A stretch of DNA of 38,238 nucleotides from Methanobrevibacter sp. (GTDB taxonomy: Archaea; Methanobacteriota; Methanobacteria; Methanobacteriales; Methanobacteriaceae). Below, piece after piece: positions 6,228 to 31,496 of this stretch. The stretch lies in the NCBI RefSeq assembly GCF_017447225.1, contig NZ_JAFSNZ010000099.1, forward strand, positions 1-38,238, written 5' to 3'. Each line of letters opens with the position of its first letter. Within the stretch, counting starts at the first letter, position 1. The notes below the pieces were generated by a model, which had not been told where the DNA came from, did not search any database, and was given only the letters and a program-made list of their open reading frames with translations. The position numbers and the translations under genes were made by a program.

Positions 6228-7260
6228 CTTCCAATAGGATTATGTTTTTAGGGTCTACTTTCAGATACTTAGGAATCTCAAAGTCATGTTCGTAGATTTC
6301 CTTATCGTATTTCCACCATAATCCGTTTGACAATGTAACTTCCCATTCGAAAGGCATTTCAAATTTTGTAGCATTTTCAGTATCTACAACATTAACATCC
6401 TCTTTTTCGGCAGCAATAAAGTCATGTGCCCTTATTCCTATATGGGTAATGTTCGGTGAAATCTTTTTGGATACTTCAAATGTAACTCCCCAATCCAGGG
6501 ATTTGAGATGATAATCGTCTATAATTTCAATTTTGGAAATATTTTTACATCCTGTAAGTCTTGCAACTTCGACTCTTCCAGGATTTTCAAATATGTCATA
6601 AGTATCTCCTTTAGCTATGATTTTTCCCTGATCCAATACTATAAGCTCATCACAGAACTGGAATGCTTCGTCACGGTCGTGGGTAACCATGATTGAAAAT
6701 CCGTCAAAACCTTTTAGCATATTACTGAGTTCAATACGCAACTGTTCTTTGAGGAAAGTATCCATAGCACTGAACGGCTCATCAAGCAAAATCACATCAG
6801 GACTGTATGCTAATATTCTGGCTAAAGCTACTCTTTGCTGCTGACCTCCGGATAACTGTCTAGGGTATCTTTTTTCCAGTCCTTCAAGATGGAAACGTTT
6901 AATCATGTCTGATACGCTTTTTTCACTATCGTCTTTGGATAAACCGATTGCAATATTTTCTTCAACAGTCATATTAGGAAACAAAGCATAATTCTGAAAT
7001 AGGTAACCTACATTTCTTTTTTGAGGTTTTATGTTGATTTTATTGTCAGAATCAAAATAGGTGATTTCTTCATTTGTAGTTAAGCTTATAATACCTTCAT
7101 CTGGATTGACAATACCTGCAATGGATTTCAATGTCATACTTTTACCGCAACCGGAAGGACCAAGAATACCCAAACGTTTGTTTTTCAATTCAAATTTAAC
7201 ATCTAAATCAAATTCCTTAAGTTCCTTTTGGATATTTACTTTTAACAGTTTGTCGCTCAT
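6223..7260 (-). CDS. modC: Molybdate ABC transporter ATP-binding protein
   Basis: 345-residue ATPase that powers molybdate (or tungstate) import. Walker A is GPSGCGKS (34-41), the Q-loop Gln is near 89, the signature LSGGQ spans 136-140, Walker B is VILLDEP (156-162) and the switch His is 194. The ~100 residues after the ATPase domain are a regulatory/TOBE-like tail. ATG 7260 is chosen because GAGGG lies 6 bases upstream; an in-frame upstream ATG at 7272 would swallow that site. It is third in the modA-modB-modC operon, 39 bases after modB. Molybdenum or tungsten serves formylmethanofuran dehydrogenase in methanogens. Confidence 0.9.
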   Translation of the reverse strand: MSDKLLKVNIQKELKEFDLDVKFELKNKRLGILGPSGCGKSMTLKSIAGIVNPDEGIISLTTNEEITYFDSDNKINIKPQKRNVGYLFQNYALFPNMTVEENIAIGLSKDDSEKSVSDMIKRFHLEGLEKRYPRQLSGGQQQRVALARILAYSPDVILLDEPFSAMDTFLKEQLRIELSNMLKGFDGFSIMVTHDRDEAFQFCDELIVLDQGKIIAKGDTYDIFENPGRVEVARLTGCKNISKIEIIDDYHLKSLDWGVTFEVSKKISPNITHIGIRAHDFIAAEKEDVNVVDTENATKFEMPFEWEVTLSNGLWWKYDKEIYEHDFEIPKYLKVDPKNIILLEE

Positions 7261-21436: not shown

Positions 21437-22228
21437 ATGTTTTATTTAGTAGGATTAGGTTTATTTGATGAAAAGGATATTTCATTAAAAGGTTTGGAAT
21501 GTTTAAAAAATGTAGATAAGATTTATGCTGAATTTTTCACTTCACGATTATTCGGCTCAAGCTTCGACAAAATCGAAGAGCTTATCGGCAAGGAGATTGA
21601 AGTTCTGGTAAGGGGTGAAGTCGAAGAGGAGCACAAGTTCATTGAAGAGGCCAAAGACCTGGATGTTGCACTGATTACCGGAGGAGATCCTCTGATTGCA
21701 ACCACCCACAGCGACTTTCTGGTTCAGTGTGCGAAAAAGGGCATCGCTTATGAAGTAATTCATGGATCATCAATATTGTCTTCAGCACCGGCAATTTCCG
21801 GCCTTCAGGGATATAAGTTCGGTAAGGTAACCACCATTCCTTTTCCGGATTATAACTTCTATCCCAAATCTCCATATGAGGCAATTGAAGAGAACCTGAA
21901 ATCAAATTTGCACACTCTCGTATTACTTGACATTCAGGCCCATAAAGACAGATACATGACTGTAAATCAGGGTTTGGAATATCTTATGAACATTAAGGAC
22001 TCCATTGACTATGAAGGACGGATTACAGAAGATACTTTGGCAATGGGTATTGCAAGAGTCGGATCAAGTGATGTAATCGTCAAAGCGGGCAAAATTGCCG
22101 ATTTAATCGATTATGATTTTGGCGGACCGCTTCACTGCATCGTTATACCGGCAAAATTACATATCGTTGAGGCAGAATATCTTGTAGAAATCGCTGGGGC
22201 TGATTCAAGCATTCTGGATGATGTTTAA
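21437..22228 (+). CDS. dphB: Diphthine synthase
   Basis: 263-residue SAM-dependent methyltransferase of the tetrapyrrole-methylase fold. It methylates the modified histidine of elongation factor aEF2 during diphthamide synthesis. The start MFYLVGLGLFDEKDISLKGLE, the VALITGGDPLIATTH loop (about 77-91) and HGSSILSSAPAISGLQ are typical, as is the length. ATG 21437 has no ribosome site. Divergent from trm5; the stop is about 6 bases from the 3' end of the first small RNA on the other strand. Confidence 0.93.
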   Translation: MFYLVGLGLFDEKDISLKGLECLKNVDKIYAEFFTSRLFGSSFDKIEELIGKEIEVLVRGEVEEEHKFIEEAKDLDVALITGGDPLIATTHSDFLVQCAKKGIAYEVIHGSSILSSAPAISGLQGYKFGKVTTIPFPDYNFYPKSPYEAIEENLKSNLHTLVLLDIQAHKDRYMTVNQGLEYLMNIKDSIDYEGRITEDTLAMGIARVGSSDVIVKAGKIADLIDYDFGGPLHCIVIPAKLHIVEAEYLVEIAGADSSILDDV

Positions 22229-22233
22229 GTTAT

Positions 22234-22353
22234 AAAAAGGGGAGAAGTAGATTGGTTGTTATCTACTTCGTGTTGTATGTATAATGAACAATCTTTGGAG
22301 ATTATAAAATGATTGAGGTATGTTCATCATAGATATGAATGTTATATCACATC
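22234..22353 (-). ncRNA. Candidate small RNA, copy 1
   Basis: About 120 bases, read on the - strand. TATA box at 22377-22384, 21 bases, then ACGATGTGA (22355-22347) where transcription should start. Hairpin A pairs ATGAACA with TGTTCAT (22321-22327 with 22284-22290) around a loop that includes the 19-base element conserved with copy 2 (22293-22311). The 3' end is a perfect 9-base-pair hairpin (22261-22269 with 22244-22252) followed by TCCCCTTTTT, a classic terminator shape. No known RNA family is recognised. Confidence 0.6.
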
Positions 22354-22376
22354 GTATAATATGTTGTTTTTCATAT

Positions 22377-22384
22377 TATATAAA
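22377..22384 (-). promoter_or_regulatory. TATA box of small RNA copy 1
   Basis: TTTATATA on the - strand, preceded by an A-rich BRE-like stretch. It is exactly 21 bases from ACGATGTGA, the same as in copy 2. Confidence 0.6.
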
Positions 22385-22497
22385 TTTTTTTAAAATTTTT
22401 TTAGAATTATCATGAAAAATGAGAAATCAGTGCTTTTTTTATATATTTTTTATATATGATTAAGAATTCATATTAAAATTAAAAAATTATGGTGTTT

Positions 22498-22626
22498 AAA
22501 AATAGGGGAGGGGGGAAGTAGAATTTATAATGTCTACTTCTTGTTTTTAAGTGCAATGAACTAACTTTGGAGATTATAAAATGGTTGACTGATGTTCATT
22601 GAAAGACATGAATTTTTCTTCACATC
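22498..22626 (-). ncRNA. Candidate small RNA, copy 2
   Basis: About 129 bases, read on the - strand and arranged like copy 1. TATA box, 21 bases, ACGATGTGA (22628-22620). Hairpin A is 8 perfect pairs (CAATGAAC 22594-22601 with GTTCATTG 22554-22561); its loop holds the 19-base conserved element (22565-22583). The terminal hairpin is 8 perfect pairs (22533-22540 with 22515-22522) and is followed by a C/T run and ATTTTT. The outside of hairpin A and the terminal loop have diverged from copy 1 while pairing is kept. Confidence 0.6.
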
Positions 22627-22649
22627 GTTTAATACATTAGTCTTTATAA

Positions 22650-22657
22650 TATATAAA
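22650..22657 (-). promoter_or_regulatory. TATA box of small RNA copy 2
   Basis: TTTATATA on the - strand with an A/G-rich upstream stretch, 21 bases from ACGATGTGA. Confidence 0.6.
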
Positions 22658-23009: not shown

Positions 23010-23168
23010 ATGACTAAAAATAGAAGAGTTACTATTAAGGTCAATAATGACCTGGACATGTATTTTCGTAAATTAGCCTCTTCTAAGTTATTGTTCACTA
23101 AGGGTTGGTATTCAAAAGCTATTGAAGAAGCTATGAAGTTGTGGATTGAAAATGAGGAGAAGTATTGA
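23010..23168 (+). CDS. Tiny ribbon-helix-helix-like protein
   Basis: 52 residues: MTKNRRVTIKVNNDLDMYF, then RKLASSKLLFTKGWYSKAI, then EEAMKLWIENEEKY. A basic start leads into a short beta-strand with alternating residues (RVTIKV), then helix 1 (NDLDMYFRKLAS) and helix 2 (WYSKAIEEAMKLWIENE). That order and length match the CopG/Arc-type ribbon-helix-helix fold, whose dimers bind DNA or act as antitoxins. No strong ribosome site or toxin partner is visible. Composition (Lys, Glu, Asn and a clear helix periodicity) suggests it is real, but it is unproven. Confidence 0.55.
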   Translation: MTKNRRVTIKVNNDLDMYFRKLASSKLLFTKGWYSKAIEEAMKLWIENEEKY

Positions 23169-31012: not shown

Positions 31013-31030
31013 TTAATGATATAAAATAAT

Positions 31031-31335
31031 AGTGGCTAGACTGGAGGGTTAGGGGTCCTCTGTAAGCACACACCCCCTTTGGTGCAGTCGAAGTTCAGAA
31101 GGCGGCTTTTCAAGGGAATATAAGCCTGGATTGACAACATAGAAACTTCGTCCTACAGGATTAATGGTGATGGAGTCTTTACTGGAGGGTAAAGAAGAAT
31201 CATCTTCGATATAGGAACGTGTCAGGCCCGGAAGGGAGCAGCTCTACTATTAACAATTGATGCTTGTAGTATCCCGGGGTGGAGTTGGATTTTCAGATCA
31301 CTTATATTTTTGAGATTAGTCCACTTCTGAACGTG
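31031..31335 (+). ncRNA. ffs: Signal recognition particle RNA (7S RNA)
   Basis: About 300 bases. The 5' end AGTGGCTAGAC can pair with AGTCCACT near 31318-31325 as helix 1. The Alu domain has the UGUNR motif (TGTAAG, 31061-31066). The S domain shows the helix 8 signature GTCAGGCCCGGAAGGGAGCAG (about 31221-31241), with a GGAA tetraloop and the A-C-containing SRP54-binding loop. The RNA works with SRP19 and SRP54 to target membrane and secreted proteins. The 3' end is uncertain by about 10 bases. Confidence 0.9.
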
Positions 31336-31405
31336 CCATTTATATAGAAATAAATAAGTTTATAAAGTACTTTTAACATATAATGGTATATCTTGTTTTG
31401 TTTAT

Positions 31406-31489
31406 GTCGGGATGGCCCAGCCTGGTACGGCGTCGGACTGCTAATCCGATGATCATATGATCACCCGGGTTCAAATCCCGGTCCCGGCG
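31406..31489 (+). tRNA. tRNA-Ser (GCT anticodon)
   Basis: 84-base class II tRNA that reads AGC/AGT. The acceptor GTCGGGA pairs with TCCCGGC (one G-U). The anticodon stem TCGGA/TCCGA encloses CTGCTAA. The long variable arm is TGATCATATGATCA, a perfect palindrome. The T arm is CCGGG-TTCAAAT-CCCGG. CCA is not encoded. It lies ~75 bases after the SRP RNA, the same linkage that I recall from Methanothermus fervidus. Confidence 0.95.
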
Positions 31490-31496
31490 TTTTAAT

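Follow-up and report, generated by a model that had tools for sequence, protein, structure and literature searches.

A tandem small RNA gene of Methanobrevibacter with a loop complementary to the translation start of the formate dehydrogenase gene fdhA

The window, a stretch of 38,238 nucleotides from contig NZ_JAFSNZ010000099.1 of Methanobrevibacter sp., carries two related small RNA genes on its minus strand, placed between the 3′ end of dph5 and a small open reading frame. The dph5 gene (dphB, diphthine synthase) occupies positions 21437-22228 of the plus strand, with the RNA pair downstream of it. The copy distal to dph5 (copy A, 22498-22628) is ~131 nt long, reaching from ACGATGTGA to a T run, and scored 122 bits (E 3.4e-21) with the covariance model described below; the proximal copy (copy B, 22234-22355) is ~122 nt long and scored 92 bits (E 5.2e-15). 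The two copies are 76% identical, copy A being found from copy B with an E value of 2.6e-22. Upstream of the pair, the small open reading frame (MTKNRRVTIKVNNDLDMYFRKLASSK..., 23010-23168, plus strand) encodes 52 amino acids and appears ribbon-helix-helix-like by eye. Its homologue holds the equivalent position in G063, a genome of another genus (L392, 997-1155), which argues that the order dph5, sRNA, small ORF predates the genus. Elsewhere in the window, the region 31029-31490 on the plus strand contains the archaeal SRP RNA followed by tRNA-Ser(GCT), both ordinary.

Both copies are built from the same elements, all on the minus strand. The TATA box TTTATATA is located at 22650-22657 for copy A, with an A-rich BRE-like stretch just 5′ of it, and at 22377-22384 for copy B; its position is kept across homologues, 88 of which were compared. 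Hairpin 1 follows at 22605-22626 in copy A (GATGTGAA/TTCATGTC) and at 22332-22353 in copy B, in both cases predicted by RNAfold and backed by double changes in the family. A middle stem-loop, also predicted by RNAfold, spans 22554-22601 in copy A (CAATGAAC ... GTTCATTG), where it presents the loop with the antisense core discussed below, and 22281-22330 in copy B (ATGATGAAC/GTTCATTAT). The genes end with a terminator hairpin, at 22498-22541 in copy A (3′ arm TTCTACTTCC, complementary to the fdhB ribosome-binding site) and at 22234-22270 in copy B (3′ arm AATCTACTTC). The terminator scan recognised the hairpin and T run of copy B, and copy A ends in this hairpin too, with C/T and T runs behind it. 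Lying in an intergenic region with its own promoter and terminator, the RNA gene fulfils one of the criteria for a trans-encoded antisense sRNA.

A first-pass annotation had described the locus as a tandem pair of an undescribed small RNA gene under selection, with two minus-strand copies sharing TTTATATA, exactly 21 bases and ACGATGTGA, then a hairpin of 7-8 base pairs and finally a hairpin of 8-9 base pairs followed by C/T and T runs. All of these elements were confirmed in the sequence and the alignment, hairpin 1 comprising eight pairs in copy A and seven in copy B. It had further proposed that one copy lost an inner pair of hairpin 1 and gained an outer one; the inner-pair loss is real (copy B), but the outer-pair gain was not confirmed. 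The annotation gave both outer hairpins and omitted the middle stem, inside which conservation of the RNA is highest. It offered no function, and the pairing with the fdhA start described below was not seen.

To define the RNA family, a covariance model was built on 32 members and searched against 151 genomes of the order. Homologues scoring at least 55 bits were detected in 55 of the 67 species genomes of the GTDB genus Methanobrevibacter, M. millerae and M. thaueri included, and about 30 of these 55 carrier genomes possess two copies. Three distant relatives were found in sister genera, and blastn matched most congeneric genomes while yielding essentially no homologues in other families of the order. 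Scanning 84,980 species for the 5′ motif together with the core returned 34 stretches, 33 of them in Methanobrevibacter; the single non-archaeal match (a Clostridia MAG, L196) is a stretch without the sRNA promoter and was taken as chance. Likewise discarded were a match in G028 (C170), which lies inside a coding region, and the covariance-model matches on the opposite strand of fdhA loci (E about 1e-4 to 0.1), which represent the target seen from behind and not additional sRNAs. In Rfam 15, archaeal sRNAs included, nothing reached the gathering threshold, the best permissive matches being C/D-box RNAs at chance level (E 1.2 and 1.6).

Covariation in the stems was evaluated using 91 aligned matches, an alignment that was fitted to the model and takes in a few fdhA-strand or unrelated weak matches. 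For hairpin 1 and the terminator, 12 of the 13 modelled pairs show double changes, a value reached by none of 500 shuffles, and pairing is kept in 97.9% of cells. The middle stem around the core is stronger than in shuffled sequence, and in the predicted fold (RNAfold) the core is single-stranded with a probability of 0.90 in copy A, 0.82 in copy B and 0.63 on average over 49 sequences. The promoters of the 88 homologues share an A-rich BRE-like stretch (-36 to -32), a TATA box (-29 to -22) and, around -6, a TAATA-like element, and the TATA box lies 22 nt ahead of the first modelled RNA base in 68 of 83 scored. With homologues in so many congeneric genomes and double changes in nearly all modelled pairs, the observation is far beyond chance. 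The first-pass annotation had suggested a covariance-model search and predicted many intergenic homologues with covarying stems, which is what the search returned; its statements that the promoter spacing is kept and that no archaeal family matches also held, the latter as far as Rfam is concerned, and its view of an undescribed small RNA gene under selection is supported by the homologues, the covarying stems, the promoter spacing and the absence of an Rfam family.

Almost all genomes contain a second, single unlinked match to the most conserved stretch of the RNA, TCAACCATTTTATAATCTCC, and this match falls on the fdhA start in opposite orientation. The loop UCAACCAUUUUAUAAUCUCCAAA, held open by the middle stem, is a perfect antisense of the Shine-Dalgarno sequence and start codon of fdhA, with CTCC opposite GGAG and CAT opposite AUG. 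In copy A the antisense core (TCAACCATTTTATAATCTCCAAA, 22566-22588) is the exact reverse complement of the fdhA start from -14 to +8, and in copy B (TCAATCATTTTATAATCTCCAAA, 22294-22316) it forms one G-U pair with fdhA, corresponding to one mismatch as DNA. In most species one more base matches beyond the -14 to +8 stretch. The fdhA gene matches TIGR01591 (formate dehydrogenase alpha) with 914 bits and is flanked by the formate transporter gene fdhC (PF01226) and by fdhB (PF04432/PF04422). The putative target is encoded elsewhere, with fdhA on another contig and, in the one-contig genome G034, with the two loci at 761,802 and 1,429,025.

This complementarity is nearly unique in the genome. The 17-mer TTGGAGATTATAAAATG occurs at exactly four sites in the 2.16-Mb genome; two are the sRNA copies, and the others are the starts of fdhA and of a single gene for a membrane protein. 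Over the 67 congeneric genomes, the listed exact copies of the 22-mer TTGGAGATTATAAAATGGTTGA are nearly all at sRNA genes or fdhA starts, and a reversed-pattern control gave 0-1 sites per genome, even allowing three mismatches; in G034 the 22-mer, which takes in the second codon, matches exactly at the sRNA and at fdhA and nowhere else. Among 360 gene starts sampled from 426 kb of the own genome, fdhA ranked first for each copy, with duplex energies of -42.4 kcal/mol (copy A) and -41.0 kcal/mol (copy B) compared to -37.9 and -32.0 kcal/mol for the respective runners-up, and reversed sRNAs yielded nothing below -33.3 kcal/mol against the same starts. In other species, the own fdhA was first or second for nearly every sRNA with an intact core that was tested, G028 being the exception. 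The possibility that GGAGATTATAAAATG is merely a common ribosome-binding-site consensus was rejected, as it was present in only three of the 360 sampled starts and the 17-mer has only the four exact sites.

The membrane-protein gene (G000, C76:4598-5370; L282) encodes 253 amino acids, is present in 59 of the 67 genus genomes, and its start often carries the GGAGATTATAAAATG leader of fdhA; the protein had no Pfam or NCBIfam match. It was rejected as the main target, its leader not being conserved. Proximal copies in several species are without the fdhA core, and the dph5-proximal copies of G004 and G010 (L032, L015) have AATCARYCTCTTTTAATCACT-like loops complementary to the fdhC leader AAAGAGGTTGAT.

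Comparison of 48 distinct fdhA leaders, which had been selected for matching with no more than one mismatch, revealed a near-invariant block from -16 to +8 that coincides with the antisense footprint, with free variation upstream of -17 and at the synonymous sites +9, +12 and +21 but not at the synonymous site +6. Leader conservation was rejected as sole proof, since at least one control leader, that of the unrelated hdrC gene, is equally conserved. Stronger evidence comes from G063, in which the sRNA is likewise located beside dph5. Here the fdhA leader reads GGAGATTATATA|ATGG and the sRNA CCATTATATAATCTCC, the canonical counterparts being GGAGATTATAAA|ATGG and CCATTTTATAATCTCC; both partners depart from the canonical sequence at the partnered base, a compensatory change which is seen in this one genome only. 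Outside G063, both the sRNA core and the fdhA leader are nearly invariant. Divergence of the leader was found in G008, where the RNA is diverged as well, and in G005, G021 and G030, in which no sRNA was found.

Nevertheless, the association between RNA and leader has clear limits. Six congeneric genomes without a detected sRNA (G022, G025, G032, G103, G104 and G109; 75-94% complete) retain the fdhA leader, and in the sister genus g23 (M. ruminantium group) a similar leader occurs in about 12 genomes and the sRNA was detected in only one. The leader may therefore be conserved for translation itself too, and because of the six genomes the sRNA and a matching leader are no more than moderately associated (45/4 against 6/4, Fisher p = 0.022, uncorrected for phylogeny). 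G028 and G116 retain an intact sRNA core together with an fdhA leader that has ceased to match it, and in these genomes the RNA may act on a different target or be a relic.

An inverted repeat AAGAAGC...GCTTCTT followed by T-rich sequence was observed between fdhC and fdhA (G000, contig C107; L280 about 6432-6511). It is terminator- or attenuator-like, lies just 5′ of the fdhA ribosome-binding site and is found in the same place in many species. In G005, G008, G013, G028 and G116, fdhA seems instead to lie directly behind the upstream reading frame.

The sequence thus shows a conserved RNA gene with its structure and promoter, a complementarity that is nearly unique in the genome, and one compensatory change. 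We consider it likely that the locus represents two copies of a trans-acting antisense RNA which blocks fdhA translation, although its transcription, its pairing with the mRNA in vivo, the repression and the trigger are inferred. Each copy would be transcribed as an RNA of ~120-130 nt from its own TATA/BRE promoter and end at the hairpin with its T run, and the stem would keep a loop of ~30 nt open. The 22-24 nt core of this loop is predicted to pair with fdhA from the Shine-Dalgarno sequence through the spacer and start codon to the second codon; fdhA, which belongs to the unlinked operon fdhC-fdhA-fdhB, encodes the catalytic subunit of the F420-dependent formate dehydrogenase. Because pairing would bury these elements, the effect is most likely repression of translation; with the ribosome-binding site and AUG covered, FdhA synthesis would be repressed and formate use probably lowered while the RNA is being made, for example when H2 is plentiful. 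H2 is a plausible signal, because H2 limitation raises fdh transcripts in Methanococcus maripaludis (PMC3600222) and fdhAB transcripts of M. ruminantium are up in co-culture with a producer of H2 and formate (PMC10658910).

Several other readings were weighed against this one. The RNA might act as a two-domain regulator of the whole fdhAB message, an extension of the main reading in which two starts are masked, that of fdhA by the loop and that of fdhB, GGGAGTAG, by the 3′ arm of the terminator, CTACTTCC, so that both subunits would be turned off together. In favour, the terminator arm is oddly constant, with GAAGTA invariant in 32 sequences, and the hairpin GAAGTAG...CTACTTC, absent from the rest of the sampled 426 kb, hardly varies within the family. 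When the arm alone was compared with the 360 starts, fdhB ranked first for both copies; across species 16 of 27 copies placed fdhB among the top three, with fdhA below rank 230, and sRNA162 of Methanosarcina mazei likewise uses two domains (PMC3510493). However, the complementarity between arm and fdhB was spotted after the fact, is limited to 8-11 bp, one G-U pair among them, lies hidden within the stem of the terminator and shows no compensatory change, and paralogues without the fdhA core keep the arm too, so that we lean slightly against this extension. It also remains possible that the RNA is a broader RBS-masking regulator with several targets, of which fdhA is the strongest, the others being the 253-aa membrane protein (C76:4612) and, for retargeted proximal copies, fdhC. 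The membrane-protein leader carries the exact 17-mer in the own genome and several other species, and the proximal copy of G004 pairs with the fdhC leader at rank 7 of 357; on the other hand, conservation of the membrane-protein leader does not extend across the genus, and the fdhC pairing in G010 reached only rank 130.

That the RNA binds the fdhA leader and stabilises or activates the message instead of repressing it finds a precedent in sRNA154 of M. mazei, which stabilises some targets and represses others (PMC5867862), but appears unlikely, as a duplex over the Shine-Dalgarno sequence, spacer, AUG and second codon should exclude the ribosome. We give least credit to a housekeeping role or to a guide RNA such as a C/D-box sRNA, with the fdhA match being coincidental or a relic of a duplicated fdhA leader. 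The weak Rfam snoRNA matches and an ATGATGA motif in copy B would point in this direction; yet the former are far under the gathering scores, and a C/D-box guide, which should have a C box (RUGAUGA) and a D box (CUGA) in each copy, was rejected since the boxes are not kept, the C-box-like ATGATGA being found only in copy B with CAATGAA in its place in copy A. The match, moreover, runs antisense over 22 nt, persists in dozens of species and changes in step in G063. A bolder version of the repression model is conceivable, in which the locus is a duplicating antisense module for one catabolic operon, its loop masking fdhA, its terminator arm fdhB, and its drifting tandem paralogues being retargetable to fdhC. 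If this were true, the RNA genes would together set H2 versus formate use across gut methanogens.

Returning to the preferred reading, repression of fdhA by antisense masking, the closest known counterparts are sRNAs of M. mazei. As is proposed for the present RNA, sRNA162 (Jager 2012, PMC3510493), an intergenic methanogen sRNA, pairs in trans through an unstructured region, masks a ribosome-binding site and governs the choice of methanogenic substrate; it uses two domains, as the present RNA would under the extended reading. It belongs to another order, has no known sequence match and targets a regulator of methanol and methylamine use, whereas the RNA described here would be directed at the enzyme gene fdhA by 22-24 nt of perfect antisense and its gene is often in tandem. 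The sRNA41 (PMC5867862) also masks ribosome-binding sites within a polycistronic mRNA, thereby repressing catabolic enzyme genes, but its target is the ACDS operon and it is tied to nitrogen supply. Like the present RNA, sRNA154 (PMC5867862) has an anti-RBS loop, which in its case blocks glnA2 translation, and is conserved within its own genus; it differs in stabilising other targets too and in belonging to the nitrogen-fixation regulon. By sequence, the present RNA represents a new family, of a known functional kind (RBS-masking antisense sRNA) if the inferred mode of action is correct. No description of a small regulatory RNA in Methanobrevibacter was found in the open-access literature searched, subscription papers being outside the scope.

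In the human gut as well as in the rumen, Methanobrevibacter is the dominant methanogen. Methanogenesis from formate in the rumen has been reviewed as largely untapped; fdh genes are present in the genomes, yet rumen samples were reported to lack fdh transcripts (PMC10658910). With formate dehydrogenase as its target, a conserved RNA would provide a specific and testable switch for formate versus H2 use, and would extend the reach of RBS-masking sRNAs beyond Methanosarcina to the order Methanobacteriales.
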